A stretch of DNA of 64,000 nucleotides from an uncultured Maribacter sp. (GTDB lineage: Bacteria > Bacteroidota > Bacteroidia > Flavobacteriales > Flavobacteriaceae). The stretch lies in NCBI GenBank assembly GCA_947504045.1, contig CANNFY010000003.1, positions 186,001-250,000 on the forward strand, in the 5' to 3' direction. The notes under the pieces were generated by a model. That model made no database searches and was not told the origin of the DNA. It saw nothing but the letters and a program-made list of their open reading frames with translations. This document shows positions 6,371 to 40,309 of the stretch, one piece after another. Position numbers and translations under genes: made by a program. Each line of letters opens with the position of its first letter. Position 1 is the stretch's first letter.

Positions 6371-7237
6371 ATGTCCAAGTCTGTAAAAATTATAGAATGC
6401 CCTAGAGATGCCATGCAAGGCATTAAAGCCTATATTCCCACAGAAAAAAAAGCAAAATACATTCAGTCTTTATTAGGTTGTGGTTTTGATACAATAGACT
6501 TTGGGAGCTTTGTATCGCCAAGAGCAATACCACAAATGGTTGATACAGCAGAAGTGTTAGGGAATTTAGATTTGTCTAAAACAAATAGTAAGCTATTATC
6601 TATTGTAGCTAATGTTAGGGGAGCAAAAGAAGCCGCAAAACATAAAGATATAAGTTATTTAGGCTACCCTTTTTCTATATCAGAAAACTTTCAAATGCGT
6701 AATACGCACAAAACAATTGCAGAATCTGTTGTAGTACTGCAAGAAATATTAAATGTAGCAGAAGCATCTAATAAACAAGTGGTAACATATATATCAATGG
6801 GGTTTGGAAACCCTTATGGAGACCCTTGGAATGTAGATATAGTAGGAGAGTGGGTAGAAAAGTTAGCTTCTTTAGGGGTAAAAATACTTTCCCTTTCAGA
6901 TACTATTGGAACATCTGATCCAAAAACTATAAACTATTTATATTCTAATTTAATACCAAAATACTCTAATATAGAGTTTGGCGCACATTTACATACTACA
7001 CCAAGTAAGTGGCACGAAAAAATAAATGCAGCATACAATGCTGGTTGCCGTAGGTTTGATGGTGCTATACAAGGTTTTGGAGGTTGCCCAATGGCAAAAG
7101 ATGAACTAACGGGTAATATGCCTACCGAAAAAATGTTATCCTACTTTACGGCACAAAAAGTAAATTCAAATGTTAATTGGATGGTTTTTGAAGCTGCTTA
7201 TAATAAAGCAAAAGAACTTTTTTCTTCTTATCACTAA
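6371..7237 (+). CDS. Hydroxymethylglutaryl-CoA lyase
   Basis: A 288-residue TIM-barrel enzyme of the HMGL-like family that cleaves HMG-CoA to acetyl-CoA and acetoacetate at the end of leucine degradation. It shows the N-terminal ECPRDAMQG motif (the usual substrate/metal Arg-Asp), the metal-binding HLHTT near residue 200, and the C-terminal loop FGGCPMAKDELTGNMPTE containing the catalytic cysteine. It stands between pyrD (95 bp upstream) and the iron cluster promoter, and looks monocistronic. No other leucine-degradation gene is in the window. Confidence 0.92.
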   Translation: MSKSVKIIECPRDAMQGIKAYIPTEKKAKYIQSLLGCGFDTIDFGSFVSPRAIPQMVDTAEVLGNLDLSKTNSKLLSIVANVRGAKEAAKHKDISYLGYPFSISENFQMRNTHKTIAESVVVLQEILNVAEASNKQVVTYISMGFGNPYGDPWNVDIVGEWVEKLASLGVKILSLSDTIGTSDPKTINYLYSNLIPKYSNIEFGAHLHTTPSKWHEKINAAYNAGCRRFDGAIQGFGGCPMAKDELTGNMPTEKMLSYFTAQKVNSNVNWMVFEAAYNKAKELFSSYH

Positions 7238-7288: not shown

Positions 7289-7348
7289 AATTTTATTTAG
7301 ATTTAATACAAATAAAATTTGTGTAATTCAATTTGGAGATTATTTTTG
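7289..7348 (+). promoter_or_regulatory. Canonical promoter with an overlapping dyad, upstream of the iron cluster
   Basis: TTTG at 7318-7321 is followed after exactly 19 bases by TATTTTTG at 7341-7348, a textbook Bacteroidota -33/-7 pair. A 10-base inverted repeat (AATTTTATTT, 11-base spacer, AAATAAAATT; 7289-7319) ends on the -33 box, a good place for a repressor operator. An iron-dependent regulator such as Fur is an inference from the downstream genes, not from a recognised box. Confidence 0.6.
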
Positions 7349-7389
7349 CACAACTCAATTATTTAAAACAAGTCTAAATTAACATAAAA

Positions 7390-8601
7390 ATGAAAAAAAC
7401 GTTACTAACTCTTAGTGCAATTTCCAGTTTATTATTTGTATCCTGTAGTTCTGATGATAATGATGGAGGTGAAGAAATATTAATAGATAACCCAGCAAGC
7501 TATACTTTTGAAAGAAATGGAAGTTCTACGGTTAGCTATAGTGGTCAAACTACTAGAATCTTAATGGGAGAAGAGTTTTTAGATGCGCTAACAGAAACTT
7601 CAAATACAGAGGCAGATTTAGACGGAATGTTTGCTCATGTAGAAGGTGAATCAGATTTTAGCGATGCAGATTTAAATGCATCAGATAAAAGTATACGCAG
7701 TAAAACAGCAGCTTCAGCAGATTTCTTTTCTGCAAATACTACCGATGCAAATGCTATAAAAGCAGATTTTGATGGATGGATTGCAGCACAAGTAGATGAA
7801 GTTTTTCCTAATTGGGAAGAAGAAGCAGTTGCAGGTTCAGCAGGTAATATACAAGAAGCAGGTGGTGGATCTGTAAGATACGTTAACGCTCAAGGTTTAG
7901 AATATAACCAAGCAATAAATAAAGCATTAATAGGTGCGCTAATGGCGGATCAAGCATTAAACAATTATTTAAGCACAGCTGTTTTAGATGCAGGAGATAA
8001 TGTTGCAAATAACGATGCTGATGTAGCAGATAATGATGATGTAACTTATACTACTATGGAGCATAAGTGGGATGAAGCTTATGGTTATGTATATGGTATA
8101 AATGCTGATGGAGCAAACCCTAATGATGATTTAGGAGTAGATAGCTTTTTAAATAAATATATTTCAAGAGTAGAAGGAGACACTGACTTTGCAGGAATTG
8201 CAGACGAAATTTTCCAAGCTTTTAAATTAGGTAGAGCTGCAATTGTTGCTAAAGATTATACTGTAAGAGATGAGCAAGCTCAAATAATCAGAGAAAAAAT
8301 ATCAGAAGTAATAGGTATAAGAGCAGTATACTATTTACAACAAGGTAAAGCAAATTTAGGTACAGATTATGCTTCAGCATTTCATGATTTATCTGAAGGT
8401 TTTGGTTTTGTGTACGGTTTACAGTTTACAAGAAAGCCTAATTCAGATGAACCATACTTTACAAAAGCAGAAGTAGATGCTTTTATTGCAACATTATTAG
8501 AAGGAAATGGTTTTTGGGATGTTACAGAAGAAACACTAGATACTATGTCGGATACTATTTCTGCAGAATTTAATTTTACAACAGCCGAAGCAGCAAATTA
8601 A
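7390..8601 (+). CDS. DUF4856 domain lipoprotein
   Basis: A 403-residue surface or periplasmic lipoprotein, with lipobox LFVSC followed by an acidic SSDDNDGGEE linker, a common lipoprotein arrangement in Bacteroidota. The body is acidic and largely helical, with the paired motifs MEHKWDEAYGYVYG and FHDLSEGFGFVYGLQF and the start SYTFERNGSSTVSYSGQT, which I recognise as DUF4856. This family is usually encoded next to imelysin lipoproteins, as here. Its function is not established; the context suggests a role in iron or haem handling. A strong hairpin follows, so the downstream genes probably also use their own promoter. Confidence 0.83.
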   Translation: MKKTLLTLSAISSLLFVSCSSDDNDGGEEILIDNPASYTFERNGSSTVSYSGQTTRILMGEEFLDALTETSNTEADLDGMFAHVEGESDFSDADLNASDKSIRSKTAASADFFSANTTDANAIKADFDGWIAAQVDEVFPNWEEEAVAGSAGNIQEAGGGSVRYVNAQGLEYNQAINKALIGALMADQALNNYLSTAVLDAGDNVANNDADVADNDDVTYTTMEHKWDEAYGYVYGINADGANPNDDLGVDSFLNKYISRVEGDTDFAGIADEIFQAFKLGRAAIVAKDYTVRDEQAQIIREKISEVIGIRAVYYLQQGKANLGTDYASAFHDLSEGFGFVYGLQFTRKPNSDEPYFTKAEVDAFIATLLEGNGFWDVTEETLDTMSDTISAEFNFTTAEAAN

Positions 8602-8631
8602 TAGCTTTCTGTTATACGTTCGTATTTTATT

Positions 8632-8670
8632 AAACTACTTGTCATTTAACCTTATTTGACAAGTAGTTTT
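8632..8670 (+). terminator. Hairpin between the DUF4856 and imelysin genes
   Basis: AAACTACTTGTCA pairs perfectly (13 bp) with TGACAAGTAGTTT across a 12-base loop. It follows the DUF4856 stop by 30 bases and its right arm ends three bases before the next -7 element, so it may terminate, protect the 3' end, or both. Confidence 0.7.
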
Positions 8671-8672
8671 GG

Positions 8673-8680
8673 TATTTTTG
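8673..8680 (+). promoter_or_regulatory. -7 promoter element for the imelysin gene
   Basis: TATTTTTG, 33 bases before the imelysin ATG and directly behind the hairpin. A TTTG inside the hairpin arm (8655-8658) is only 14 bases away, shorter than normal -33 spacing, so promoter strength is uncertain. Confidence 0.5.
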
Positions 8681-8712
8681 CAAAACCATTAAATTAGTAA
8701 GTTTTTTACATT

Positions 8713-9807
8713 ATGATTAAGAAGTTATTTTTACTAGCAATTGTTTTTTTAGTTTATGCATGTTCAAGTTCTACTGATGATTCTTCAGGAGGTGGAGATA
8801 ATGACAATTTTGATAGAGAAGCCGTACTTATAAATGTGGCAGATAATATTGTTATTCCTGCATTAGAAGATTTATCTCAAAAATTAGTTACATTAAAAGC
8901 AGATAAAGATGCTTTTGTTGCTACACCGGATCAAACTAATTTAGATGCTTTAAGAAGTTCTTGGTTAAGTGCTTATGAAGTTTGGCAATATGTAGAAATG
9001 TTTAATATTGGTAAAGCAGAAGAAATTTTATATTCTTTTCAGATGAATATTTACCCTGTATCTGTAGCTGATGTTGAAGATAATATAAACTCTGGTTCTT
9101 ACGATTTAACTCATGTTAATAATAACGATGCTGTTGGTTTTCCAACAGTAGATTATTTACTGTATGGTATAGCTGCTGATGATGATGCTATTTTAGTTAA
9201 ATACGAAGATGTAAAATATTTAAACTATTTATCTGATGTTATAAACCAGATGGATACTTTAACAGATGAGGTTTTAAATGATTGGACTACTTCTTACAGA
9301 GCTACCTTTATAGCAAGTACTTCTAATACAGCTTCAAGTGCATATAATAAATTAGTTAACGACTTTATTTTTTATTACGAAAAAGGCCTAAGAGCTAATA
9401 AAATTGGTACTCCTGCAGGTAATTTTTCTACAGATCCATTGCCAGATAGAGTTGAAGCTTTTTATAATAATGAAATTTCTAAAACTTTAGCATTAGAGGC
9501 ATTAACTGCAGTAGAAGATTTTTTTAATGGTAAAGCTTATAATGGTACTGCAATAGGAGAAAGTTATGCAACTCATTTAGAGAGTTTAGATAATTCTGCT
9601 TTACAAGCACTTATTAATACTCAATTTAATGGCGCACGAGAAAAAATAAATGAATTAGACAACAGTTTTTCTAATCAAATAAGTGTTGATAATACGAAAA
9701 TGACAGAAGCTTATGATGCTTTGCAGTTAAATGTAGTAGCTATAAAAGTAGATATGTTACAGGCATTTAATGTAAGTGTAGATTATGTAGATGCAGATGG
9801 CGACTAG
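8713..9807 (+). CDS. Imelysin family lipoprotein
   Basis: A 364-residue lipoprotein with signal LLAIVFLVYAC (Cys at 17) and a Ser/Gly/Asp-rich tether. The mature domain matches imelysin/IrpA-like proteins: a two-lobed helical structure with LRSSWLSAYEVWQYVEMFNI early on, the GFPTVDYLLYG stretch that replaces the GxHxxE peptidase-like motif in Bacteroidota members, and a late EALTAVEDFFNG repeat of the fold. Imelysins bind or process iron or haem at the cell surface or in the periplasm; the exact ligand is not known. It follows a DUF4856 gene and precedes a carboxylase homologue and a TonB receptor. Confidence 0.87.
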   Translation: MIKKLFLLAIVFLVYACSSSTDDSSGGGDNDNFDREAVLINVADNIVIPALEDLSQKLVTLKADKDAFVATPDQTNLDALRSSWLSAYEVWQYVEMFNIGKAEEILYSFQMNIYPVSVADVEDNINSGSYDLTHVNNNDAVGFPTVDYLLYGIAADDDAILVKYEDVKYLNYLSDVINQMDTLTDEVLNDWTTSYRATFIASTSNTASSAYNKLVNDFIFYYEKGLRANKIGTPAGNFSTDPLPDRVEAFYNNEISKTLALEALTAVEDFFNGKAYNGTAIGESYATHLESLDNSALQALINTQFNGAREKINELDNSFSNQISVDNTKMTEAYDALQLNVVAIKVDMLQAFNVSVDYVDADGD

Positions 9808-9829
9808 TCTAAAAAATATTTAAAATTTT

Positions 9830-9859
9830 AAGGTTATCTGGTTCAGATGACCTTTTTTT
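9830..9859 (+). terminator. Intrinsic terminator after the imelysin gene
   Basis: AGGTTATC pairs with GATGACCT (one G-T pair) and is followed by a run of seven T. It lies only 17 bases before the next gene, so partial read-through is likely to set the ratio of imelysin to downstream transcripts. Confidence 0.7.
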
Positions 9860-9875
9860 GTTTACAATACCAAAT

Positions 9876-11243
9876 ATGAAAAAACAAATCACCAAATATT
9901 TAGATAAAAAAGCCTCTAGCGCTTCTTTAGCTATTTTTCGTATTGGCTTTGGTTTAATGATGTGTTTTAGCATTATTCGTTTTTGGAGTAAAGGATGGAT
10001 AGAAACTCTTTATATTACTCCTACATTTCATTTTAAGTACTTTGGTTTTGAATGGGTAAAAGACCTAGGGGAATATACCTATATGCTATTTTTAATTTGC
10101 GGTGTTTCTGCCTTTTTAATAGCACTTGGCTATGTATATAGAGCGGCAATAGTTGTATTTTTTTTAAGTTTTACTTACATAGAATTAATAGATAAGACTA
10201 CTTATTTAAACCATTATTATTTTGTAAGTATAGCTAGTTTTTTATTAATTTTTTTACCAGCAAATACATACTTTTCTTTAGATGCAGTAAAAAGAAAAAA
10301 AGAATACTTATATATTCCAAAATGGAATATAGACGCTATAAAATTACTTTTAGGAATAGTATATTTTTATGCAGGTTTAGCTAAGCTTAATTCAGATTGG
10401 CTTTTTAAAGCAATGCCTTTAAAAATATGGTTGCCTTCTAAATATGATATACCCATATTAGGCACTACATTAATGCAAGAAAACTGGTTCCATTATGTAA
10501 TGAGTTGGTCTGGCATGTTGTATGATTTATGTATTCCTTTTTTACTGCTTTATAAAAAAACAAGAAATGTAGCTTTTATATTGGTTGTAATTTTTCATCT
10601 TTTTACAAGACTACTTTTTCCTATAGGAATGTTCCCGTATATAATGATAGTTGGTTCAATTATATTTTTTGATGCTAGTTTGCATATAAAAATTCTAAAC
10701 TATTTATCAAAAACATTTAATCCATTTAAGCAAAAATGGGACCTTGTTACCAAAAAACAAACTGTAGTAAAACCTTTTAAAAAATCTGCTCTTTATATGG
10801 TAGTACTATTTTTTGTATTTCAACTTGTATTTCCTTGGCGTTATTTAGTTTATCCAGGAGAATTATTTTGGACAGAAGAAGGGTATCGTTTTTCTTGGAG
10901 AGTTATGTTAATGGAGAAAATGGGTGTGGCAAATTTTAAAATTGTAGATGCTAAGACTAAAAAGTTTTTTTATGTAGATAATTCAGATTTTTTAACTCCA
11001 CTACAAGAAAAACAAATGGCTTTTCAGCCAGACTTTATTTTAGAATACGCTCATTTTTTAGGAAATCATTTTACAAAACAAGGTCATAAAAATGTTCAGG
11101 TTTTTGTAGATAGCTATGTGGCATTAAACGGAAGGTTAAGTCAACCATTTATAGATAAAACCGTAGATTTGTATCAAGAAAAAGAATCATTCAAACATAA
11201 AAAGTGGATACTATCATTCAACCATGAAATTAAAGGATTATAA
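9876..11243 (+). CDS. Vitamin K-dependent gamma-carboxylase-like (HTTM) membrane protein
   Basis: A 455-residue polytopic membrane protein with about seven to eight hydrophobic segments in the first 310 residues and a soluble C-terminal domain. It belongs to the HTTM/gamma-carboxylase family: DKTTYLNHYYF (His 113) and AGLAKLNSDW (Lys 170) match the regions that hold the catalytic His and Lys of animal GGCX, and the C-terminal part contains EEGYRFSWRVMLMEKMG, LTPLQEKQMAFQPDFI and VALNGRLSQPFID, strikingly similar to GGCX. Animal enzymes carboxylate protein glutamates using vitamin K hydroquinone; the bacterial role is unknown. The start is the ATG at 9876 rather than a TTG 18 bases upstream. 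Its end overlaps the TonB receptor start by 20 bases. Confidence 0.85.
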   Translation: MKKQITKYLDKKASSASLAIFRIGFGLMMCFSIIRFWSKGWIETLYITPTFHFKYFGFEWVKDLGEYTYMLFLICGVSAFLIALGYVYRAAIVVFFLSFTYIELIDKTTYLNHYYFVSIASFLLIFLPANTYFSLDAVKRKKEYLYIPKWNIDAIKLLLGIVYFYAGLAKLNSDWLFKAMPLKIWLPSKYDIPILGTTLMQENWFHYVMSWSGMLYDLCIPFLLLYKKTRNVAFILVVIFHLFTRLLFPIGMFPYIMIVGSIIFFDASLHIKILNYLSKTFNPFKQKWDLVTKKQTVVKPFKKSALYMVVLFFVFQLVFPWRYLVYPGELFWTEEGYRFSWRVMLMEKMGVANFKIVDAKTKKFFYVDNSDFLTPLQEKQMAFQPDFILEYAHFLGNHFTKQGHKNVQVFVDSYVALNGRLSQPFIDKTVDLYQEKESFKHKKWILSFNHEIKGL

Positions 11244-13650
11244 AGTATTAATTATATTTTTTATGTTGAGTTTTTCTTTAGCAGCTCAATATAAAATATC
11301 AGGTATTGTAACTAACTCGGATAATTCTTCTGTTATTAATCAGGTAGAAGTATATGACAAAGAAATAGGTAAACTTGCCACAACAAATAGCGAAGGCTAT
11401 TTTGAGTTTTCTACCCAGAAAGAAAAAATTACTCTTGTTTTTTTCTCTTTCAATTTTAAAGTAAAAGAAGAAGTATTATCCTTAACTAAAAATGTAGAAT
11501 TAACAGTTTCTCTTAACCCATTGGGAGAACAATTATCTGAGGTAGAAGTAACAGCCAGAAAAGCACAAGTTTTTGAAATAAAAAGATTGAATGATGTAGA
11601 GGAAACATCTATTTATGCAGGAAAAAAAACGGAAGTTGTTTTAGTAGAGCAGTCTATGGCAAATTTAGCATCTAATAATGCAAGACAAATTTATAGCCAA
11701 GTTGCGGGGTTAAATATTTTTCAAAATGATGATGCAGGTTTGCAACTTAATATAGGAGGTAGAGGTCTAGATCCTAATAGAACAGCAAATTTTAATACAA
11801 GACAAAATGGGTATGATATAAGTGCAGATGTTTTAGGCTATCCAGAAAGTTATTATACCCCAGCAGCAGAAGCATTACAAGAGGTGCAAATTATTAGAGG
11901 GGCAGCATCGTTACAGTATGGAACACAATTTGGAGGATTAGTTAATTTTGTAATGAAAAAGCCAAACGCAACCAAACCAATAGAATTGGTTACAAGAAAT
12001 ACAATTGGTAGTTATGGGCTTTATACTAATTTTACTAGTGTTAGTGGTGCAAAAAATAAGTTTAGTTATTATGCTTTTTTTAATTATAAGAAAGGAGATG
12101 GTTTTAGGCCAAATTCTGAATTTGAGTCTAAAAACGCTTATGCACATTTAGGATATCAATTTACAGACAAAACAAAATTAGAAGGAGAAATTACCTATTT
12201 AAATTATTTAGCACAACAAGCAGGAGGATTAAATGATCAAATGTTTGCAGAGGATCCCTACCAGAGTAATAGAGCTCGTAACTGGTTTCAGGTAGATTGG
12301 CTTTTATATAATGTAAAATTATCGCATAAGTTTTCAGAAAATACAAACTTTACGTTTAATATGTTTGGGTTAAATGCCTCTAGAGATGCATTAGGTTTTA
12401 GAACAAACAGAGTAGATCAGGTGGATCCAGGTTCTGAAAGAGATTTAATAAAAGGAGATTTTAATAATTATGGTTTTGAGGCTCGTTTATTAAGTGAGTA
12501 TAGTTTATTTAATAAAAAGGCGACTTTTTTAGTAGGAACTAAATTTTATAAAGCAAATAATACTGCGCAACAAGGACCAGGCTCTAATGGTAGCGATGCA
12601 AATTTTAATATTCAATTAGACGATTATCCAAACTATCCGAACCAATCTGAATATAAATACCCAAATCTTAATATTGCTCTTTTTGGAGAAAATATACTTT
12701 ATTTAAATGAGAAGTTATCTATTACGCCAGGATTTAGATTAGAGCATATAAAAACTGAAAGTGATGGTTTTTTTAAAAACATAAATACAGATGCTGCGGG
12801 TAATGTAATTTTAAATGAAACTATAGAAGATGCAGAAGAAAGAGAACGCTCGTTTGTGCTTTTAGGACTAGGGCTTGGTTACAAACCAAGTACAGATCTA
12901 GAGGTTTATGGTAATATTTCGCAAAATTATAGGTCTGTTACTTTTTCAGATATTAGTATTGTAAATCCAGCATTTGTTATAAGTCCAGATATATCTGATG
13001 AAAAAGGATTTACCGCAGATATTGGGTTTAGAGGTAATTACAATAATATAGTTTCCTATGATATAGGCTTTTTTGGCTTGTTTTATAAAGATAGAATTGG
13101 CTTTGTACAAAGAGCTTTTTCTGATGGAAGTGTAAAAAGTGAACGTAATAATGTAGGAGATGCAGTAATGTATGGCCTAGAGTCTTTGGTTGATTTTAAT
13201 TTAAATAAACTATTTATAAAGAATAGTAACTACAGCTTTAATTACTTTATAAATGCATCTATAATAGATTCTAAATACACAAAGTCTGAGCAAAACGGTA
13301 TAGAGGGGAATAAAGTAGAATTTATTCCAAATTTAAATCTTAAAACAGGAATTAGATTTGGGTATAAAAATATACTTTCCAATATTCAATACACCTATTT
13401 GTCTTCTCAATTTACAGACGCTTCTAATGCGGTAGAAGGTAATTTAAGTGGTGTTATTGGAGAAATACCAGCTTATAATGTGTTAGATTTTTCATTGTCT
13501 TATAGTTATAAAAAGTTTAAATTAGAGGCAGGAATAAATAATGTATTAAACAAGGCTTATTTTACAAGAAGAGCTACGGGTTATCCTGGTCCAGGAATAA
13601 TACCGTCTGCTCCAAGAAATTTTTATACAACCTTGCAGTTTAAATTATAA
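11224..13650 (+). CDS. TonB-dependent outer membrane receptor (FecA/iron-type)
   Basis: An 808-residue receptor. A signal peptide (FFMLSFSLAAQ) is followed by a carboxypeptidase-regulatory-like domain (about 24-100), a plug domain (about 135-245, with INIGGRGLDPNRTANF-like and EVQIIRGAASLQYGTQFGG motifs) and a 22-strand-type barrel ending in an aromatic C-terminus, FYTTLQFKL. The plug and the single-receptor arrangement without a SusD partner resemble FecA-like iron/haem transporters rather than glycan receptors. It overlaps the gamma-carboxylase-like gene by 20 bases, so the two are translationally linked. The imelysin and haem-binding neighbours support iron or haem as substrate. Confidence 0.9.
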   Translation: MKLKDYKVLIIFFMLSFSLAAQYKISGIVTNSDNSSVINQVEVYDKEIGKLATTNSEGYFEFSTQKEKITLVFFSFNFKVKEEVLSLTKNVELTVSLNPLGEQLSEVEVTARKAQVFEIKRLNDVEETSIYAGKKTEVVLVEQSMANLASNNARQIYSQVAGLNIFQNDDAGLQLNIGGRGLDPNRTANFNTRQNGYDISADVLGYPESYYTPAAEALQEVQIIRGAASLQYGTQFGGLVNFVMKKPNATKPIELVTRNTIGSYGLYTNFTSVSGAKNKFSYYAFFNYKKGDGFRPNSEFESKNAYAHLGYQFTDKTKLEGEITYLNYLAQQAGGLNDQMFAEDPYQSNRARNWFQVDWLLYNVKLSHKFSENTNFTFNMFGLNASRDALGFRTNRVDQVDPGSERDLIKGDFNNYGFEARLLSEYSLFNKKATFLVGTKFYKANNTAQQGPGSNGSDANFNIQLDDYPNYPNQSEYKYPNLNIALFGENILYLNEKLSITPGFRLEHIKTESDGFFKNINTDAAGNVILNETIEDAEERERSFVLLGLGLGYKPSTDLEVYGNISQNYRSVTFSDISIVNPAFVISPDISDEKGFTADIGFRGNYNNIVSYDIGFFGLFYKDRIGFVQRAFSDGSVKSERNNVGDAVMYGLESLVDFNLNKLFIKNSNYSFNYFINASIIDSKYTKSEQNGIEGNKVEFIPNLNLKTGIRFGYKNILSNIQYTYLSSQFTDASNAVEGNLSGVIGEIPAYNVLDFSLSYSYKKFKLEAGINNVLNKAYFTRRATGYPGPGIIPSAPRNFYTTLQFKL

Positions 13651-13666
13651 TATTAAAATCTAGATC

Positions 13667-14119
13667 ATGAAAAAAGTAATTAAAATAATTTTAGTTTGTT
13701 TAGTGCTAGCGTTTATTGTGTTACAATTTTTTAGTGTAGAACAGAATAATGCAGAAATTAGAGATGTAGCGGATTTTGAATTAGAAACTAAACCATCTAA
13801 AGAAATTGCTGCAATTTTAGAAAAGCAATGTTACGATTGTCACACCAATAAAACAGTTTATCCATGGTATGGATCTATTGCTCCAGTTTCTATGTGGATG
13901 GCAGATCATGTAGAAGAAGGAAATGAGCATTTTAACCTTACAGGATGGAGTAGTTATAGTGATAAAAAGAAAGATCATAAATTAGAGGAGCTTATTGAAG
14001 AAGTAGAAGAAAATAAAATGCCTTTAAAAGAATATACATGGACACATGGTAGTATGACAGATGCAGAAAAAGAAGCATTAATTACATGGGCAAAACAGGC
14101 TCGTTCTGTATATAAATAA
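13667..14119 (+). CDS. Haem-binding domain protein (single CxxCH)
   Basis: A 150-residue protein with one N-terminal membrane anchor or signal segment (residues 4-23) and the c-type haem motif CYDCH at 55-59, followed by YPWYGSIAPVSMW and DHVEEGNEHFNL. This is the 'haem-binding domain' family common in Bacteroidota. It probably faces the periplasm and carries covalent haem. It starts 17 bases after the TonB receptor and is followed by a terminator, making it the last gene of the cluster. It may serve as an electron donor or haem carrier for the imported iron species; that is inference. Confidence 0.87.
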   Translation: MKKVIKIILVCLVLAFIVLQFFSVEQNNAEIRDVADFELETKPSKEIAAILEKQCYDCHTNKTVYPWYGSIAPVSMWMADHVEEGNEHFNLTGWSSYSDKKKDHKLEELIEEVEENKMPLKEYTWTHGSMTDAEKEALITWAKQARSVYK

Positions 14120-30916: not shown

Positions 30917-33900
30917 TTACCTGTTAATATATAAGTAACCTGCTTTCTTTTTTGGTTCATTAAGGTTAATATATTCTACAACATAATAGTAAATACCAAC
31001 TGGTAAATTTTCGTTTTTATTTATTGTTGCTCTTCCATTAGAGATTCCTCTAAATCCATTACTACCATTATTATAACCACTGGTTTCAAAAACCAATACT
31101 CCCCATCTGTTATAAATTTTCACAGTGTTATTTGGATAAGCTTCAATGTTAGTTATTTTGAATATTCCGTCTGTAATGCTAGGATCTACAAGGTCGTTTT
31201 CAAAAATAATGTCACATGCAATTCCATCAGGAGCCATTCCTCCAATATGATTACAAGGATCTAAAGGGTTCGTTTCATCAGAAACTTCTTGTCCATCTAT
31301 AATAGAGTCTCCATCAGTATCATCATTATTAGGGTCTGTACCTAAGGCTTCTTCTTCGGCGTTAGTTAAACCATCATTATCACAATCACTCTCGTCTAAT
31401 GGTGTTCCATCAATAGAATCACAATCATCTAAAGGATCTGTATTATCTAAAACCTCTTGTCCGTCTAGAATACCATCTTGATCCGAGTCTGAATTATTAG
31501 GGTCTGTTCCTAAAGCTTCTTCTTCTGCATTAGTTAAACCGTCATTATCACAATCGCTACTTTCTAGAGGGTTTCCTCCAATAGAATCACAATCATCTAA
31601 TGGGTTAGTACCATCTATGGCTTCTTGATTATCAGGAATGCCATCCCCATCCGTATCTGTATTATATGGGTCTGTACCGTTAGTACTTTCTGTACCATTG
31701 TTAATACCATCCCCATCGCAATCTGCTGCTGCCCAAATAGCATTACTAGCATCATAGCTTGTGTACCCTGCTATTTGTAAAGGATCACATGGATCTAAAG
31801 AATCGGTATTATTAATAGATTCTTCATTATCAGGAATGCCATCGCCATCCGTATCAGCATTATAAGGATCGGTATCATTAGCATCTTCTGTACCATTAGC
31901 AACACCGTCGTTATCACAATCCGCTGCTGCCCAAATAGCATTGGTAGCATCATAGCCTGTGTACCCTGCCGCTTGTGTTGGGTTACATGGATCAAGAGGA
32001 GCGGTATCTGTATCATCAGGAATACCATCGCCATCCGTATCTGTATTATATGGATCTGTACCATTGGTATCTTCTGTACCATTAGTTACATTGTCTCCAT
32101 CACAATCCGCTGCTACCCAAATAGCATTACTAGGATCATAACCTGTGTACCCTGCTGTTTGTGTAGGTCCGCAAGGATCTAAAGGTGCAGTGTCTGTATT
32201 ATCAGGAATGCCATCGCCATCCGTATCTGCATTGTATGGATCCGTGCCATTAGTATCTTCCGTTCCATTAACAACACCATCGCCATCACAATCTGCTGCT
32301 GCCCAAATAGCATTGCTAGCATCATAACCTGTATATCCATCGGCTTGTGTTGGGTTACATGGATCTAAAGGAGCTGTATCTGTATTATCAGGAATACCAT
32401 CCCCATCCGTATCTGTATTATATGGATCTGTACCATTGGTGTCTTCTGTGCCATTAACAACACCATCTCCATCACAATCTGCTGCTGCCCAAGTTGTATT
32501 GCTAGCATCATAACCAGTGTATCCTGCCGCTTGCGTTGGGTTACATGGATCAAGTGGAGCAGTGTCTGTATCATCAGGAATACCATCCCCATCTGTATCA
32601 GCATTATAAGGGTCTGTACCATTGGTATCTTCTGTACCATTAGCTATAGTATCACCATCGCAATCTGCAGCTGCCCAAATAGCATTGGTAGCATCGTAGC
32701 CTGTGTATCCAGATGCTTGAGTTGGATTACAAGGATCTAAAGGAGCGGTATCTGTATCATCAGGAATACCATCTCCATCCGTATCTGCATTATAAGGATC
32801 TGTACCATTGGTATCTTCTGTGCCATTAACAACACCGTCATTATCGCAATCTGCTGCCGCCCAAGTTGTATTGGTAGCATCATAACCTGTGTAACCAGCA
32901 ACTTGTGTAGGTCCACATGGATCAAGAGGCGCAGAGTCTGTATTATCAGGAATACCATCCCCATCCGTATCTGTATTATATGGATCTGTACCATTAGTAT
33001 CTTCCGTTCCATTAACAACACCATCGCCATCACAATCTGCTGCTGCCCAAATGGCATTACTAGCATCATATCCAGTATAGCCTGCTGCTTGTGTAGGGCT
33101 ACATGGGTCAAGAGGTGCAGTATCTGTATTATCAGGAACACCATCACCGTCCGTATCTGCATTATATGGATCTGTACCGTTGGCATCTTCAGTACCATTA
33201 GCAATAGTATCTCCATCACAATCTGCTGCTGCCCAAATAGCATTGGTAGCATCATATCCAGTATAGCCTGCTGCTTGTGTAGGGTTACATGGGTCTAAAG
33301 GAGCGGTATCTGTGTCATCAGGAATACCATCCCCATCCGTATCTGCATTATATGGATCTGTACCATTGGTATCTTCTGTACCATTAGTTACACCGTCATT
33401 ATCACAATCTGCTGCTGCCCAAATGGCATTACTAGCATCGTAACCTGTGTATCCTGCTGCCTGTGTAGGTCCACATGGATCAAAAGGCGCAGTGTCTGTA
33501 TTATCGGGTTCTCCATCACCATCCGTATCATTATTATAAGGGTCTGTACCATTATTATCTTCTACACCATTAGCAATAGTATCGCCATCACAATCTGCTG
33601 CTGCCCAAATGGCATTACTAGCATCGTAGCCTGTGTACCCAGCTGCTTGTGTTGGGTTACAAGGGTCTAAAGGAGCAGTATCTGTGTCATCAGGAATACC
33701 ATCTCCATCCGTATCTGCATTATATGGATCTGTACCATTGGTATCTTCTGTGCCATTTGTTACATTATCTCCATCACAATCAGCTGCTGCCCAAATAGCA
33801 TTGGTAGCATCATAACCTGTATAACCTGCAGCTTGTACTGGATTACATGGGTTAAGTGGTGCATTATCTGTAGCATCCGGAAAACCATCGCCATCTGTAT

Positions 33901-36900
33901 CTGCATTATATGGATCTGTACCATTGGTATCTTCTGTACCATTATCAATACCGTCGTTATCACAATCCGCTGCTGCCCAAATAGCATTGGTAGCATCATA
34001 TCCAGTATAGCCTGCTGCCTGTGTTGGATTACAAGGATCTAAAGGAGCGGTATCTGTGTCATCAGGAATACCATCGCCATCTGTATCTGTATTATATGGA
34101 TCGGTTCCATTAGTGTCTTCCATACCATTAGCAATACCATCGCCATCACAATCCGCTGCTGCCCAAATAGCATTACTAGCATCATAACCTGTGTACCCTC
34201 TATTTTGTATTGGGTTACAAGGATTGTTACCTTCGGCATCTGCATTGTCTGGAACTCCATCTCCATCAGTATCTACATTATATGGATCTGTACCATTAGC
34301 AGCTTCTACTCCGTTACTTGCTCCGTCACCATCGCAATCTGCTGCTGCCCAAATAGTATTGGTAGCATCATAACCTGTGTAACCGGCAACTTGTGAAGGA
34401 TCGCATGGGTCGAATGGATTATCATCGGTATTATCAGGAACGCCATCACCATCCGTATCATTATTATAAGGGTCTGTACCATTATTATCTTCTACACCAT
34501 TAGCTATTGTATCTCCATCACAGTCTGATGCCGCCCAAATAGCATTAGTAGCATCGTAGCCTGTATAACCAGCCACTTGCACAGGATCACATGGATCTAG
34601 TGGGTTAGTATCCGTATCATCAGGAACTCCATCCCCATCGGTATCTGCATTATAAGGGTCGGTACCATTAGTATCTTCTGTGCCATTAGTAACATTATCT
34701 CCATCACAATCTTCATTTGCCCAAATAGTATTGGTAGCATCATAACCTGTATAACCTGCAGCCTGTACTGGATCACATGGATCCAAGGCATTGGTATCTG
34801 TATCATCAGGGATACCATCGCCATCGGTATCTGTATTATATGGGTCGGTACCATTGGTGTCTTCTGTACCATTAGTTATACCATCCCCGTCACAATCTGC
34901 TGCTGCCCAAATGGCATTACTAGCATCATACGTGGTATATCCAGCTGCTTGCGAAGGATCACAAGGATTTAAACTATCGGTGTTATTGGTTAACTCCTCT
35001 TCATTAGTAACACCATCGCCATCACAATCTGCGGCATTCCAAGCTGCACTAGGTGTTTCTGTAGCACTTGTAATTACATAATCGCATAAATCATTAGGAT
35101 TTGTAAAATCTGTTTTCACCTCAGTACCATCTGTTACTCCATCCCCATCTGAATCTGGATTTGTAGGATCTGTGCCAGCTGCTGTTTCTTCATCTGTTGT
35201 TAATCCATCATTATCACAATCACTAGTTCCTAAAGGACTTCCCCCAACAGAATCACAATCATCTAATGGATCTGTAAGATCTGTGTTAACTTCTGTGCCA
35301 TCATCTATTCCATCACCATCTGAGTCTGAATTTGCTGGATCGGTACCTGCTGCAGCTTCTTGATTATTATTTAATCCGTCACCATCACAATCATTAGTTC
35401 CTTGTGGTCTCCAATCTACATGCGAACTAGGTTCACATGGGTCATTTGGTGCAGTATCAGCTGCATCACATACATTATCTCCATCAAGATCAGAACATTC
35501 AGGTGTTTCTACCGATAAAATTGCATCGTCACAAACGGTTCCATTACAAACTCTATACACTATGGTTACCGTAGTATTGTTTTCACCGTTAGTAGGCGTA
35601 TATGAAATTTCGCCAGTAGCTTGATTAATACTAATAATACCAGCCGCTGTACCCGTACCTAAATCTGTTATGGTACTGCCAACTAAAAAGTCGTCATTAA
35701 ATAAAACATTTATTGTTTTTTCTTCCAATACAGTTGCTGTTGTATAATCATCATTTGCAGTTGGCGCAAAAGGATTAGGGTCGGTAGCATTGGTATTACC
35801 ATCTTCATCACAATCTGCCGCTTGCCAAATAGCATTAGAAGCGTCATAACCAGTATACCCTGGCACTTGCGTAGGTGTACAAGGATCAAGTGGAGCTGTA
35901 TCTGTGTTATCCGGAACTCCGTCACCATCGGTATCGGTATTATACGGATCTGTTCCATTAGTTTCTTCGGTTCCATTATTAATACCGTCATTATCACAAT
36001 CTGCTGATTGCCAAATGGTATTAGTAGCATCATAACCTGTGTAACCTTCTGACTGTGCTGGATCACAAGGATTTAGTGGGTCAGTATCTACATTATCTGG
36101 AACACCATCGCCATCGGTATCGCTATTATACGGATCAGTACCGTTAGTATTTTCTGTACCATTATCTATACCGTCATTATCACAATCACCAGCTTGCCAA
36201 ATAGTATTAGAAGCATTATAACCAGTGTAACCAGCAGCTTGTGCAGGGTCACATGGGTCTAGTGGGTCATTATCAGTATTATCAGGAACCCCATCGCCAT
36301 CGGTATCTGTATTATACGGATCAGTACCATTAGTTTCTTCTGTACCATTAGTTATGCCATCATTATCACAATCACCTGCTTGCCAAATACTATTAGAAGC
36401 ATTATAACCGGTATAGCCAGGAGCTTGTGAAGGATCACATGGATCTAATGGATTAGTATCTAAATTGTCTGGAACACCATCGCCATCGGTATCTGTTCCA
36501 TAAGGATCTGTACCATTAGTTTCTTCTGTACCATTAGTTATACCATCATTGTCACAATCTGCATTTTGCCACATTGTATTAGTAGCATCATAACCTGAAT
36601 AGCCTTCTGTTTGTGCTGGATCACAAGGGTCTAGTGGGTTAGTATCTGTATTATCAGGAACCCCATCACCATCGGTGTCTGTATTATATGGATCTGTACC
36701 ATTAGTATCTTCCACACCATTATCAACACCATCCGCATCACAATCTGCGTTCGCCCATATTGTATTAGTTGCATCATAACCAGTATACCCTGCTGCTTGT
36801 GTTGGAGAACAAGGATCAAGAGGAGCTGTATCTAAATCATCTGGAACACCGTCACCATCCGTATCATTATTATAAGGGTCGGTACCATTAGTATCTTCTG

Positions 36901-39900
36901 AGCCATTAGTAACGCCATCGTTATCACAATCTGCATTTGCCCAAGTTGTATTGCTAGCATCATACCCAGTATACCCTGCTGCTTGTATTGGAGAACAAGG
37001 ATCTACTGCATCGGTATCAGTATTATCAGGAACACCATCACCATCGGTATCTGTATTATATGGATCCGTACCATTAGTATCTTCTGTACCATTAGTAACA
37101 CCATCACCATCACAATCTGCTGCTGCCCAAATAGCATTACTAGCATCATAACCTGTATAACCAGCTGTTTGTGTAGGATCACAAGGTTCTTGAGTATCTG
37201 TGTTATTTGCTACTTCGGTTTGGTTATCAATACCATCACCATCACAGTCTGCTGTATTCCAAGCAGTGCTAGGTGTTTCTGTTGCACTATCAATATCGTA
37301 GCTACATAAATCTAGGGGGTCTGTACCATCAACAGTTATTTCCCAACCATCTTTTACACCATCCCCATCTGAATCAGGATTTGTAGGATCTGTACCAGCA
37401 GAAGCTTCTTCGGCTTCAGTTAGTCCATCATCATCACAATCGCTTGTGCTTAAAGGAGTACCTCCGTTAGAACTACAATCATCTAAAGGATCCGTACCAT
37501 CTGTATTAATTTCTGTACCATCATCTATACCATCACCATCACTATCAGCTTCATTAGGATTTGTACCTGCAGCTGCCTCCTCATCATTGGTAAGTCCGTC
37601 ATTATCACAATCATTTGTTCCTTGCGGTTGCCAATACTGGTCACTTGAAGGTTGACATGGATCGTTAACCGTTGCAGGTGTTTCTGCAGCATCACACACA
37701 TTATCGCCATCAGAATCTATACATGCAGGAATTTCTACATAAAATATTGCAGTGGCACAAATAGTACCATTACAAACTTGATAATCTATAGAAACCGTAG
37801 AGAAATTTTCACTTATTGGTGCCGTATAGGTAATTTCTCCTGTTGCGTTATTAATAACAACTGTACCAGAAGCGGTACCCGTACCTAAATCTGTAATGGT
37901 ACTGCCTACTAAAAAGTCGTCATTATTTAAAACATTAAATGTTTTTGCAATAGTTACACTTGCTGTGGTAAAATCATCAGTTGCAGTTGGATTAAATGGA
38001 TTTGGATCACTACCATTTACATTACCATCGGCATCACAATCTGCTGCTGCCCAAACGGCATAATTCTCATCTGTGCTTTCACGCTCCGTTGGTGTTGTTA
38101 CAGAACAAGGGTCTGCAGGGTCTGTACCGTTTGCTATTTCCGTTCCATTATCTTCGCCATCACCATCGCAATCTGTTGTATTCCATATTGGATCAACATT
38201 AGCTACTACTTGGTTTGTGCTATACACACAAGCATCATTAGGGTCTGGATCTGTGGCATCTGGGTCACCATCGCCATCATCATCATTGTTTTCTATAGTA
38301 ATCGTTTCTTCTAAATCATCTGCCGTTTCATTAGAGTCTACTTGATCTTGTGAGTTTGACACCGTATTTGTAATTGAAACTTCTCTTGTAGGAGACTCAA
38401 TTGCATCGGGTATAGCAACAAGGGTTAAAGTTTGTTTTTCTCCACCTGTCATTGTACCTATACTCCAGTTTGGAGAAGACCAAGTTCCAGAAGAAGGTGT
38501 TGCACTAGATAAGGTTAAACCAGTAGGTAAGACATCGTTGATTACAACATTAGTAACATCGTGTACCCCTAAACTTTCTACAGTTATAGTAAAAGTAACA
38601 GTTTCCTCTTCTGAATACGTTGATTTATCTGCGGTTTTTGTTACTGCTATATCTGGATTACAATAATATATATTGATAACATTAGAATTGTAAAAACAGC
38701 CACCTGAAGAAACTTCAACATAATAATCACCAAGAGTAGTTGGTGTATAAGAAGAAAGGTTTGCACCAGGAATTAATTCTCCGTTTCTATACCATTGGTA
38801 GGTGTCAAAAGTATTTGTTAATGTAATTTCACTTCCTACACAACCGTCACCAGAAATAGTGTAATCCACTACAGGAACCGTATCAAAACCAGAGAAGTAA
38901 CCTCCAATACCAAGGGCTCCACTTAAACCAACTACACCAACGGCAATTGGACCTGAAGATTCTACAGAAACATTACCAGTAACACCTGGCACATAAAAAC
39001 TTTTCCAAGGTAAGCCTTGTGCTTCTTGAGATGCTGGTAATGTAACCACACCATTTTCATCTGTTACAATAATATTACTATCTAAAGTAGTTGAAGAAGC
39101 TAAAATGGTTAAACCACCGGAAATTACTGTACCTACTAAATCTTCTATTTCTGCAATATTGTTTAGTTCACTTGGTAACAGACAATTTACCGGAGCTATA
39201 AAGTTTAAACCTGTTGTAGCAACACTTGTACTTCCTGCTAAACATTGGTAAGCATATACATTATTTGATGTTGTAACCGTAAGGTTACTACCAGGTGTTG
39301 TACCTGTATAATTAGAACCTGGAATTAAAAAGTATTCTCCATCATTAATAGTTGCTATTGGGGTAGTTGCGCCATTTACAAATATATCGGTACCATTAAC
39401 AGTACCAATAATTATTGGAAACTCTAAATTGTTACCACCATTACCTCTAATAAAAACATATTCACGACCTAGAGATTCTATTGGAACTGGCTGATCTATA
39501 CCAGCATCTTGAGCAGTAGAATTGGCATCTACACCTACTAAAATATTACCGTTACTAATAACAATATTGTTGTTAGAAGCAATGTCTGCACCTAACCAAC
39601 CATCTTTATTTGCATCTCCAAGGTCTCCTCGGCTTTCTACTACATAACTTTGACCTTTATTTAAATTGACGGTTAATATATCATCGGTTAAACCATCTAC
39701 TGTGGTACCATCTCTAAACTTAGTTTCTGGATTATAATCCGATATAGTGACTACCGTATTGTCTTCAGTTGCCATAATACCTAATGTGGCATTATGAATA
39801 CTTCTATTTCTAATTAAAGGAACACCACCCCATTTAAAGTGTGTACCCATTGCCGCCCTACCTTTAGAGGTTAACGATGCTCCTTGCGCATTATTTTTAC

Positions 39901-40309
39901 CACGATAGTTTACATAAAATTTTTCACCACCAGGAGCTTCAAACCGAAGACCACTAGTACTTAAAATAGCATTAACATTTTCTGGAGTTACCATGGTAAT
40001 ATTGTTATTACCATTGGGTAAAGTATGAATATATGGTGCAGTATTAGAAACCTGTACAATTTGAGGCGTAGTAGATGTACCTATAAAAATATGTACGTCA
40101 AAAGCATCTGTTTCTGGAGTAGATAAATACACTGCTTGATCATCCATATCTGTTGCCCTTTGCCTTAATGGCGGCAAGTAATGCACATCACTAAGCTGCG
40201 CTTGTATTGATTGGAAAGGGATGAAAACTAATAGGAAGAGTAAAAAAATGAATACTTCTTTTTTTACTTTATCTTTTTTTGTTAAAAATAATTGGGGGAA
40301 TATTTTCAT
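30917..40309 (-). CDS. Giant T9SS type B surface protein with thrombospondin type 3-like repeats
   Basis: A 3130-residue secreted protein. In order: signal peptide (FIFLLFLLVFIPFQSIQAQ); an IgGFc-binding-protein-like N-terminal domain (about 60-470); an Ig-like segment (QWYRNGELIPGANLSSYTP); a DUF11-type repeat (DIAVTKTADKSTYSEEETVT); then two modules each made of a cadherin/VCBS-like domain (FNVLNNDDFLVGSTITDLG; INVLFNDDFLVGSTITDLG), DSDGDGIDDGTE-type calcium motifs and blocks of 62-residue repeats. The last ~89 residues are a gliding-motility-associated, type B T9SS sorting domain ([30 protein letters not shown]). It is very likely exported through T9SS and surface-attached as a calcium-stabilised adhesin; ligand unknown. 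The PorP/SprF and OmpA-like genes just upstream are probable helpers. Confidence 0.92.
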   Translation of the reverse strand: MKIFPQLFLTKKDKVKKEVFIFLLFLLVFIPFQSIQAQLSDVHYLPPLRQRATDMDDQAVYLSTPETDAFDVHIFIGTSTTPQIVQVSNTAPYIHTLPNGNNNITMVTPENVNAILSTSGLRFEAPGGEKFYVNYRGKNNAQGASLTSKGRAAMGTHFKWGGVPLIRNRSIHNATLGIMATEDNTVVTISDYNPETKFRDGTTVDGLTDDILTVNLNKGQSYVVESRGDLGDANKDGWLGADIASNNNIVISNGNILVGVDANSTAQDAGIDQPVPIESLGREYVFIRGNGGNNLEFPIIIGTVNGTDIFVNGATTPIATINDGEYFLIPGSNYTGTTPGSNLTVTTSNNVYAYQCLAGSTSVATTGLNFIAPVNCLLPSELNNIAEIEDLVGTVISGGLTILASSTTLDSNIIVTDENGVVTLPASQEAQGLPWKSFYVPGVTGNVSVESSGPIAVGVVGLSGALGIGGYFSGFDTVPVVDYTISGDGCVGSEITLTNTFDTYQWYRNGELIPGANLSSYTPTTLGDYYVEVSSGGCFYNSNVINIYYCNPDIAVTKTADKSTYSEEETVTFTITVESLGVHDVTNVVINDVLPTGLTLSSATPSSGTWSSPNWSIGTMTGGEKQTLTLVAIPDAIESPTREVSITNTVSNSQDQVDSNETADDLEETITIENNDDDGDGDPDATDPDPNDACVYSTNQVVANVDPIWNTTDCDGDGEDNGTEIANGTDPADPCSVTTPTERESTDENYAVWAAADCDADGNVNGSDPNPFNPTATDDFTTASVTIAKTFNVLNNDDFLVGSTITDLGTGTASGTVVINNATGEITYTAPISENFSTVSIDYQVCNGTICATAIFYVEIPACIDSDGDNVCDAAETPATVNDPCQPSSDQYWQPQGTNDCDNDGLTNDEEAAAGTNPNEADSDGDGIDDGTEINTDGTDPLDDCSSNGGTPLSTSDCDDDGLTEAEEASAGTDPTNPDSDGDGVKDGWEITVDGTDPLDLCSYDIDSATETPSTAWNTADCDGDGIDNQTEVANNTDTQEPCDPTQTAGYTGYDASNAIWAAADCDGDGVTNGTEDTNGTDPYNTDTDGDGVPDNTDTDAVDPCSPIQAAGYTGYDASNTTWANADCDNDGVTNGSEDTNGTDPYNNDTDGDGVPDDLDTAPLDPCSPTQAAGYTGYDATNTIWANADCDADGVDNGVEDTNGTDPYNTDTDGDGVPDNTDTNPLDPCDPAQTEGYSGYDATNTMWQNADCDNDGITNGTEETNGTDPYGTDTDGDGVPDNLDTNPLDPCDPSQAPGYTGYNASNSIWQAGDCDNDGITNGTEETNGTDPYNTDTDGDGVPDNTDNDPLDPCDPAQAAGYTGYNASNTIWQAGDCDNDGIDNGTENTNGTDPYNSDTDGDGVPDNVDTDPLNPCDPAQSEGYTGYDATNTIWQSADCDNDGINNGTEETNGTDPYNTDTDGDGVPDNTDTAPLDPCTPTQVPGYTGYDASNAIWQAADCDEDGNTNATDPNPFAPTANDDYTTATVLEEKTINVLFNDDFLVGSTITDLGTGTAAGIISINQATGEISYTPTNGENNTTVTIVYRVCNGTVCDDAILSVETPECSDLDGDNVCDAADTAPNDPCEPSSHVDWRPQGTNDCDGDGLNNNQEAAAGTDPANSDSDGDGIDDGTEVNTDLTDPLDDCDSVGGSPLGTSDCDNDGLTTDEETAAGTDPTNPDSDGDGVTDGTEVKTDFTNPNDLCDYVITSATETPSAAWNAADCDGDGVTNEEELTNNTDSLNPCDPSQAAGYTTYDASNAIWAAADCDGDGITNGTEDTNGTDPYNTDTDGDGIPDDTDTNALDPCDPVQAAGYTGYDATNTIWANEDCDGDNVTNGTEDTNGTDPYNADTDGDGVPDDTDTNPLDPCDPVQVAGYTGYDATNAIWAASDCDGDTIANGVEDNNGTDPYNNDTDGDGVPDNTDDNPFDPCDPSQVAGYTGYDATNTIWAAADCDGDGASNGVEAANGTDPYNVDTDGDGVPDNADAEGNNPCNPIQNRGYTGYDASNAIWAAADCDGDGIANGMEDTNGTDPYNTDTDGDGIPDDTDTAPLDPCNPTQAAGYTGYDATNAIWAAADCDNDGIDNGTEDTNGTDPYNADTDGDGFPDATDNAPLNPCNPVQAAGYTGYDATNAIWAAADCDGDNVTNGTEDTNGTDPYNADTDGDGIPDDTDTAPLDPCNPTQAAGYTGYDASNAIWAAADCDGDTIANGVEDNNGTDPYNNDTDGDGEPDNTDTAPFDPCGPTQAAGYTGYDASNAIWAAADCDNDGVTNGTEDTNGTDPYNADTDGDGIPDDTDTAPLDPCNPTQAAGYTGYDATNAIWAAADCDGDTIANGTEDANGTDPYNADTDGDGVPDNTDTAPLDPCSPTQAAGYTGYDASNAIWAAADCDGDGVVNGTEDTNGTDPYNTDTDGDGIPDNTDSAPLDPCGPTQVAGYTGYDATNTTWAAADCDNDGVVNGTEDTNGTDPYNADTDGDGIPDDTDTAPLDPCNPTQASGYTGYDATNAIWAAADCDGDTIANGTEDTNGTDPYNADTDGDGIPDDTDTAPLDPCNPTQAAGYTGYDASNTTWAAADCDGDGVVNGTEDTNGTDPYNTDTDGDGIPDNTDTAPLDPCNPTQADGYTGYDASNAIWAAADCDGDGVVNGTEDTNGTDPYNADTDGDGIPDNTDTAPLDPCGPTQTAGYTGYDPSNAIWVAADCDGDNVTNGTEDTNGTDPYNTDTDGDGIPDDTDTAPLDPCNPTQAAGYTGYDATNAIWAAADCDNDGVANGTEDANDTDPYNADTDGDGIPDNEESINNTDSLDPCDPLQIAGYTSYDASNAIWAAADCDGDGINNGTESTNGTDPYNTDTDGDGIPDNQEAIDGTNPLDDCDSIGGNPLESSDCDNDGLTNAEEEALGTDPNNSDSDQDGILDGQEVLDNTDPLDDCDSIDGTPLDESDCDNDGLTNAEEEALGTDPNNDDTDGDSIIDGQEVSDETNPLDPCNHIGGMAPDGIACDIIFENDLVDPSITDGIFKITNIEAYPNNTVKIYNRWGVLVFETSGYNNGSNGFRGISNGRATINKNENLPVGIYYYVVEYINLNEPKKKAGYLYINR
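31601..34976 (-). repeat. Coding tandem repeat block B: about 18 units of 186 bp
   Basis: About eighteen consecutive 62-residue units inside the giant protein. A typical unit begins DPCNPTQAAGYTGYDA, continues WAAADCDGDG and NGTEDTNGTDPYN, and ends ADTDGDGIPDDTDTAPL. Each unit carries two DxDGDG-type calcium loops and two cysteines (in DPC and DCD) that could form one disulfide per unit, as in thrombospondin type 3 repeats. Amino acids are highly alike, while Gly and Asp codons in the loops vary at third positions between units. Confidence 0.9.
35790..37190 (-). repeat. Coding tandem repeat block A: about 7.5 units of 186 bp
   Basis: The same 62-residue unit type as block B, but more diverged: variants include GYNASNTIWQAGDC, GYSGYDATNTMWQNADC and NGTEETNGTDPY. 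The last unit is cut short at DEDGNTNATDPNPF where the second cadherin-like domain begins. Confidence 0.88.

Follow-up and report, generated by a model that had tools for sequence, protein, structure and literature searches.

In GGCX, the vitamin K-dependent gamma-glutamyl carboxylase, carboxylation and the epoxidation of a quinol are described as coupled reactions, and to our knowledge the question of what its bacterial homologues do is unanswered. Here we analyse such a homologue (V), which stands in a row of putative iron-uptake genes in a 64,000-nucleotide stretch of DNA from an uncultured Maribacter sp. (assembly GCA_947504045.1, contig CANNFY010000003.1, positions 186,001 to 250,000), hereafter the window; its neighbours are a DUF4856 lipoprotein (D), an imelysin-like lipoprotein (I), a TonB receptor (T) and a haem-binding protein (H). 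V resembles human GGCX (PDB 9wfc, 9l6q and others) in its fold over human residues 47-515, in the equivalents of Lys218, His160 and Asn159 and in most of the vitamin K pocket. It differs from the human enzyme in sequence (25% identity), in having nothing that corresponds to human 516-758, in the changed Asn158, Lys217, Met401 and, apparently, Arg436, and in being a bacterial protein of an iron operon whose genome yielded no VKOR. The imelysin operons ICMP/PA4370-4373 and EfeUOB are iron-regulated, as this locus very probably is, and encode an imelysin-like protein; they pair imelysin with an EfeB/DUF1111-type peroxidase (PMC3143127), whereas here VKGC and a TonB receptor are found instead, Pfam detects no such peroxidase among the five genes, and I is without the His of the GxHxxE motif. 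Escherichia coli FecA is the sole relative of T among solved structures at E 1e-5 or better (FecA entries, about 1e-16), although T carries a CarbopepD_reg_2 N-domain. Another close locus is that of Riemerella anatipestifer, in which consecutive locus tags in a table of putative Fur-regulated genes denote a TonB receptor (RAYM_09779), a vitamin K-dependent gamma-carboxylase (RAYM_09784), an imelysin lipoprotein (RAYM_09789) and a hypothetical protein (RAYM_09794), all induced by iron limitation (PMC5609570). The genes of the window are as follows.

7390..8601, + strand: D, DUF4856 lipoprotein of 403 residues with lipobox Cys19 (Pfam PF16148, E 1.4e-148)
8713..9807, + strand: I, imelysin-like lipoprotein of 364 residues with lipobox Cys17 and GFPTVD replacing GxHxxE (PF09375, E 7e-30)
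9876..11243, + strand: V, membrane enzyme with HTTM and VKGC_lumenal_dom, 455 residues from the ATG (Pfam; GGCX fold)
11224..13650, + strand: T, FecA-like TonB-dependent receptor of 808 residues (Pfam TonB_dep_Rec, 1.4e-30)
13667..14119, + strand: H, haem-binding CxxCH protein of 150 residues, an optional neighbour (Haem_bd PF14376, E 2.9e-46)

All five open reading frames (ORFs) were verified at these positions and on this strand, with Pfam families that agree with the names given to the consecutive genes in an earlier note on this DNA, and the overlap between carboxylase and receptor that it reported amounts to 20 nucleotides (11224-11243). V scores 263.6 bits with HTTM (E 2.6e-78) and 206.2 bits with the VKGC lumenal domain (E 3.1e-61), the cut-off being 27.7 for each, and T also carries Plug and CarbopepD_reg_2 domains. 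As most relatives align from about residue 7, the V start is more likely the ATG at 9876 than the TTG at 9858, from which the protein would count 461 residues. The source genome is that of a Maribacter-like member of the Flavobacteriaceae; the best relative of V, from Maribacter vaceletii, shows 87% identity. Based on the data below we propose that D-I-V-T is a Fur-controlled ferric-chelate uptake operon, which we consider very probable, and that within it V would be an enzyme that draws on menaquinol and O2 and has a carboxylate as its target; to the explanation as a whole we assign a probability of roughly 0.45.

The arrangement is widely conserved. Among the named relatives, which are the best 80 of at least 583 loci by V similarity and are biased toward close relatives, the gene order is D-I-V-T in 77 and I-V-T in the other three, so that the survey of related genomes set by the earlier note as a refuting check returned a recurrent neighbourhood. 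H lies beside the operon in 12 of the 80, ten times after T and twice before D; the conserved unit is D, I, V and T, H is optional, and of the five-gene cluster of the earlier note four genes stand. Less biased counts were obtained from two samples of 149 genomes each, one class-wide and one from the own family. VKGC occurs in 46 genomes of the class sample with 61 matches, 59 of which were fetched as loci, the other two being the window itself and one cut by a contig end; 33 of these loci are D-I-V-T, two are I-V-T and 24 are without these neighbours. By a manual count of the labels on the tree, the 35 operon loci come from 20 differently labelled families. In the own-family sample VKGC is found in 121 genomes and DUF4856 in 53, at least 51 of which have VKGC within about 3.5 kb of DUF4856 (coordinates compared by eye). 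Operon V forms one clade (support 94) in a tree made by FastTree only, with long branches; three of the 24 neighbourless loci fall within it and are read as relocated, and the other 21 make up the unlinked clade. Among the 24 loci away from the operon, one of which is a second copy in the own genome, no neighbour family is present in more than five. VKGC also occurs on plasmids, in 4 of 72,556 records, three of which were fetched: on the Persicobacter plasmid imelysin-like ORFs stand directly before V with no D or T match nearby, and this V falls inside the operon clade (FastTree), while the Bernardetia and Paracoccus plasmids carry VKGC without imelysin, D or T nearby. A second, unlinked VKGC in the own genome (G000:C1:463183-464502) lies between the riboflavin kinase/FAD synthetase and seryl-tRNA synthetase genes.

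The following elements were found in front of and between the genes.

7295..7313, + strand: Fur-box-like site 1, ATTTAGATTTAATACAAAT, matching the R. anatipestifer consensus at 15/19
7318..7348, + strand: Bacteroidetes-type promoter, TTTG-N19-TATTTTTG, assigned from the sequence by the consensus of that type
7361..7379, + strand: Fur-box-like site 2, ATTTAAAACAAGTCTAAAT, matching the same consensus at 15/19, downstream of the promoter
8632..8669, + strand: hairpin between D and I with a 13-bp stem and a 12-nucleotide loop, from the sequence
9830..9854, + strand: terminator-like hairpin with a T run between I and V, from a terminator scan

The promoter that the earlier note had placed at the front of the cluster starts at 7318, and we take it, from its consensus, to be of the Bacteroidetes type. 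It is flanked on both sides by Fur-box-like sites (7295-7313 and 7361-7379). For such sites we scored the 19-nucleotide consensus of R. anatipestifer within 160 nucleotides upstream of each gene with a threshold of at least 15/19, using the loci in which the start of the gene could be read, 73 out of 80 in the case of D. Sites were found before D in 70/73 close relatives and in 33/47 distant ones, and two sites of at least 14/19 in 60/73 close relatives; before the other genes of close relatives the counts are 0/55 for the HMG-CoA lyase-like gene (HMGL) upstream of the operon, 0/73 for V, 0/79 for T, 14/79 for I and 1/12 for H. A Fur-box-like element is thus conserved at the operon promoter (70/73, against 0 at HMGL, V and T), and together with the conserved gene order this upholds the earlier note's view of an iron-linked cluster that truly includes a GGCX homologue. 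In the whole window five sites of at least 15/19 were found on the + reading and four on the - reading, with two positions common to both; those at 20812, 26624, 27293 and 29670 are within ORFs, another is at 61474, and the three + reading sites besides the pair before D are within ORFs. A first-order Markov simulation gave a mean of 1.75 sites per 64 kb (range 0-7, 12 runs), compared to which the total of the window is ordinary. As this total is within the simulated range, the Fur argument rests on position and conservation. An E. coli-type promoter scan did not list the 7318 promoter and returned fewer sigma-70-like sites than in shuffles; -7/-33 promoter elements are mentioned in the R. anatipestifer paper (PMC5609570).

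An iron response, which the earlier note had asked for, is in print for the apparent R. anatipestifer counterpart only. The RNA sequencing of wild type without and with iron gave ratios of 2.11 for T, 2.64 for V, 3.07 for I and 2.41 for the hypothetical gene in the tabulated data (PMC5609570); these are headed 'Ratio' and are apparently log2 values, because the threshold in the same section is |log2Ratio| > 1. All four genes are induced in the fur mutant as well (PMC5609570). The counterparts were matched by product names and locus-tag order, not by alignment, and it is from position only that we infer RAYM_09794 to be DUF4856. The operon system is in part known already, as its four genes stand in a published Fur table; in that paper 'gamma-carboxylase' appears once, in the Fur-regulated table (PMC5609570). 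Among the open-licence PMC papers searched, it is the only one in which gamma-carboxylase, imelysin and TonB receptor were seen to be named side by side, namely in that table, and no paper was found there that discusses the role of V in such an operon.

V matches human GGCX over residues 50-502 in a sequence search (E about 2e-43), and its model, with a predicted local distance difference test (pLDDT) score of 91.6, superposes on GGCX over 439 residues with Z 32.7 and a root-mean-square deviation of 3.2 (Foldseek E 1.7e-21). Residues were counted in one VKGC sequence per locus, from 140 loci and the window, of which the operon clade makes up 120. H113 and K170 of V (ATG numbering) correspond to human H160 and K218. 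The equivalents of K218, the base, and of N159 and H160, which form the Glu pocket, are unchanged in 120/120 operon-clade sequences, and so are those of A214, W223, G259, F286, F299, W399 and M402; F294 is kept in 116/120, and Y395 is Tyr in 96 and Phe in 24. The roles of the listed GGCX residues, except W399, are those given in PMC12589487. The M401 equivalent is Val in 120/120, and the operon clade has charged residues of its own, e.g., E340 and R344 (TTG numbering). Of the 21 VKGC genes of the unlinked clade, all 21 retain K218 and 16 retain H160. The modelled fold and these residues make it likely that V would be an enzyme that uses menaquinol and O2 and acts on a carboxylate.

We propose that D and I would be outer-membrane lipoproteins working with the FecA-like receptor T, and that V would be an inner-membrane protein whose active site opens to the periplasm, much as that of human GGCX opens to the lumen of the endoplasmic reticulum. 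Supplied with menaquinol and O2, V would most likely generate a strong base, which would take a proton from a periplasmic substrate bearing a carboxylate; CO2 would then be added to this substrate, leaving menaquinone epoxide as a by-product. The likeliest substrate would be a glutamate of an exported protein, possibly D, I or T, which may thereby acquire extra metal-binding carboxylates; that V carboxylates protein glutamate is our best single guess, though we place it somewhat short of even odds. V would be a useful yet dispensable add-on, because several lineages hold D-I-T without V.

Several observations in this and the following paragraph weigh against the proposal. The iron response of the four R. 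anatipestifer genes is kept in the fur mutant (T 2.70, V 2.77, I 2.92, hypothetical gene 3.07), so that Fur is not the sole control, and these genes are absent from the Fur-box table of that paper (PMC5609570). In Bizionia argentinensis, the genome of which carries D-I-V-T, MliR acts as the activator of an imelysin-like gene and of a TonB receptor, the transcript of which rises upon addition of ferric citrate (PMC9478572); if these are the genes of the operon, such a response would counter simple iron repression. Furthermore, the hairpin ahead of V could uncouple V from D and I. Regarding the protein, N158, which in human GGCX holds the backbone of gamma-carboxyglutamate (GLA), is Leu in 120/120 operon-clade sequences; R436, with the same role, is Gln in 97, Met in 18 and Glu in 5, at a position with an alignment gap close by and an adjoining Lys (K385, TTG numbering) kept in 119/120; and K217 is Ala in 114/120. 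Human residues 516-758 have no counterpart in V, as both the sequence match and the model end at about residue 515 of 758, and V does not carry a complete propeptide-binding domain (PBD-1 and PBD-2), the residues of which are placed beyond human residue ~515 in PMC12589487. VKOR (PF07884) was not found in the own genome, which is 99.7% complete, and in the class sample it is present in 1/46 VKGC genomes versus 7/103 others; the recycling of the epoxide is therefore unexplained, and an animal-type vitamin K cycle, with VKOR in the same genome, finds no support. COX1, being present in 145/149 class-sample genomes and in 46/46 with VKGC, is nearly universal and therefore uninformative on a link to O2.

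Operons without V offer a natural comparison. D-I-T without V occurs in eight class-sample and two own-family genomes, and four more loci hold D-I without V and without a T match; in these 14 loci tblastn (E 0.01) detected no remnants of V, and in one of them (L225) I and T are separated by a gap of 735 nucleotides. Two families (f11 and f13) hold both V-plus and V-minus operons; in f13 DUF4856 is present in 10/10 genomes and VKGC in 2/10. On a T tree made by IQ-TREE (56 rows, eight of them V-minus) the absence of V needs five changes, at least four of them by strongly supported branches, and repeated loss is likelier than regain because V is present across most of the T tree and is itself one clade. 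Glu columns were compared between sequences with and without V (49/10 for T, 50/13 for I, 48/13 for D), the V-minus set being small and clustered. In D, I and T every Glu whose conservation with V reaches 90% or more stays at 80% or above without it; the largest partial differences are at window Ala336 of I (70% vs 23%) and Gln219 of T (57% vs 20%), followed by Glu103 of I (60% vs 31%), and columns other than Glu differ too, as does Asp139 of I (41/49 with V vs 2/8 without). No V-specific insertion was found in D, I or T, and the presence of V brings no enrichment of Glu in the lipoprotein tails that follow the lipid Cys (Glu per 30 tail residues: D 2.09 and 1.8 where V is present, 2.4 where it is absent; I 1.94 and 0.76 against 2.0). 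As no strongly conserved Glu tracks V, a fixed Gla site in the operon proteins is argued against by columns and tails alike, while scattered sites, to which the conserved-column test is blind, and other substrates remain. Gla on D, I or T may possibly occur, though the comparison of Glu residues lends it no support.

The same changes admit other explanations of V. Given that the quinol pocket and the base are intact, whereas residues that hold the peptide have changed and what else belongs to the propeptide region is altered or lacking, V might be a menaquinol epoxidase or O2 consumer that carboxylates nothing. It would then lower O2 or change the quinone pool in the vicinity of the uptake machinery and thereby keep iron soluble or reduced, and it would replace the di-haem peroxidase that is usual beside imelysins; the other imelysin cluster of the own genome does hold a di-haem oxidoreductase. 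A Leptospira homologue is reported to differ in its activity in a way that suggests some function besides carboxylation. We nevertheless find such an epoxidase unlikely, as it should not need the carboxylate-binding residues, of which N159 and H160 never vary and Y395 is either Tyr or Phe, and a VKOR to recycle its product was not found in the genome. Moreover, neither the Pfam matches nor the fold include a domain with haem, flavin or metal that could serve the reduction of Fe(III); such a reduction by V, which the earlier note had envisaged, finds no support. V could also modify an imported ligand, a carboxylate-type ferric chelate that enters via T and is carboxylated or oxidised at the boundary of membrane and periplasm with a change in its affinity for iron. 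That FecA, a ferric dicitrate receptor, is closest to T among solved structures would suit this, as would a clade that keeps the pocket for a side-chain carboxylate while changing the backbone-holding residues and adding charges of its own, and the lack of any strongly conserved protein Glu that tracks V. Yet GGCX acts on peptide Glu, we know of no small-molecule precedent for a GGCX-type enzyme, and T is far under the cut-off of the NCBIfam FecA equivalog (104.8 vs 1100 bits), all of which leaves modification of a ligand quite improbable. Equally doubtful, in our judgement, is the wider idea that a GGCX-type enzyme was recruited in Bacteroidota to process an iron-uptake substrate, be it a carboxylate ferric chelate or another non-propeptide substrate, with menaquinol and O2 at the inner membrane; if true, vitamin K chemistry would be used outside protein gamma-carboxylation.

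V might instead have no part in iron uptake, being an ancient neighbour that does housekeeping work of another kind and is kept in place by the structure of the operon, i.e., by translational coupling to T. The D-I-T operons of several lineages without V, the occurrence in many of these genomes of unlinked VKGC genes that share no context, and a hairpin between I and V that may separate the expression of V are all consistent with a bystander. On the other hand, the V genes of the operon form a single clade, keep one arrangement throughout many families of the class and have an active site that does not change, T persists without V, so that coupling is not needed, and the R. anatipestifer V is induced together with its neighbours (PMC5609570); a bystander is in our view distinctly unlikely. 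If V is the menaquinol- and O2-using enzyme of an iron operon that we propose, it could reveal vitamin K chemistry in metal uptake and would help to assign functions to DUF4856 and its paired non-canonical imelysins. Many marine and related bacteria hold a relative of the vitamin K carboxylase of human blood clotting at a fixed spot in an iron-controlled uptake operon, and this fixed place, the constant active site and the natural V-plus and V-minus operons make a bacterial role of GGCX open to direct experiment.

As to the partner proteins, D has a conserved H332/E336 pair (HxxxE), and its AlphaFold model (pLDDT 92.4) is mostly helical without a clear fold match in the PDB. A hidden imelysin was sought in D: the best Foldseek E was 1.4 and the best VIA Z 5.7 with no imelysin in either list, and a profile comparison reached a probability of 75 over 99 columns, again with no imelysin listed. 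I scores 105 bits with the imelysin Pfam family (M75; cut-off 23.5) and is related to the PDB imelysins 3n8u, 3pf0, 4ecg and 7xrx, but departs from GxHxxE: the His position is Pro in 47/63, none of the five residues listed for it (60/63 rows) is His, and the last position of the motif is Asp in 53 and Glu in 10 of 63. Another imelysin cluster, comprising imelysin, di-haem oxidoreductase, imelysin and DUF2490, is found on the same contig ~61 kb beyond the operon (C3:261580-265112). In seven relatives (L038, L040, L048, L056, L064, L081, L086) at least two imelysin-like ORFs lie on the opposite strand 0-1.6 kb after the operon, two of them ~1.5 kb apart, and two imelysin systems are thus sometimes neighbours in the same genome.

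Both hairpins that the earlier note had marked, at 8632 and 9830, are present. The one between D and I has a loop that exceeds the limit of the hairpin scans, which therefore missed it, and was read from the letters; the one between I and V is the strongest among seven terminator-like sites listed for the region. Terminator-like hairpins, counted without a shuffled control, occur in the I-V gap of 60/79 close and 0/10 distant relatives and in the D-I gap of 40/76 close and 3/30 distant ones. These hairpins likely result in graded expression within the own family, favouring the lipoproteins over the enzyme and the receptor.

Upstream of the operon and on the same strand, the HMG-CoA lyase-like gene is at window positions 6371-7237; it is found likewise in 52/80 relatives, in some of which the gap between it and the operon is 1.6-2.6 kb. 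A weak and short VKGC-like match (42 and 31 bits) lies upstream of D in two relatives (L095 and L105) and could stem from a remnant or from some other HTTM protein. Elsewhere in the window, a single ORF of 3130 codons occupies positions 30917-40309 on the minus strand.

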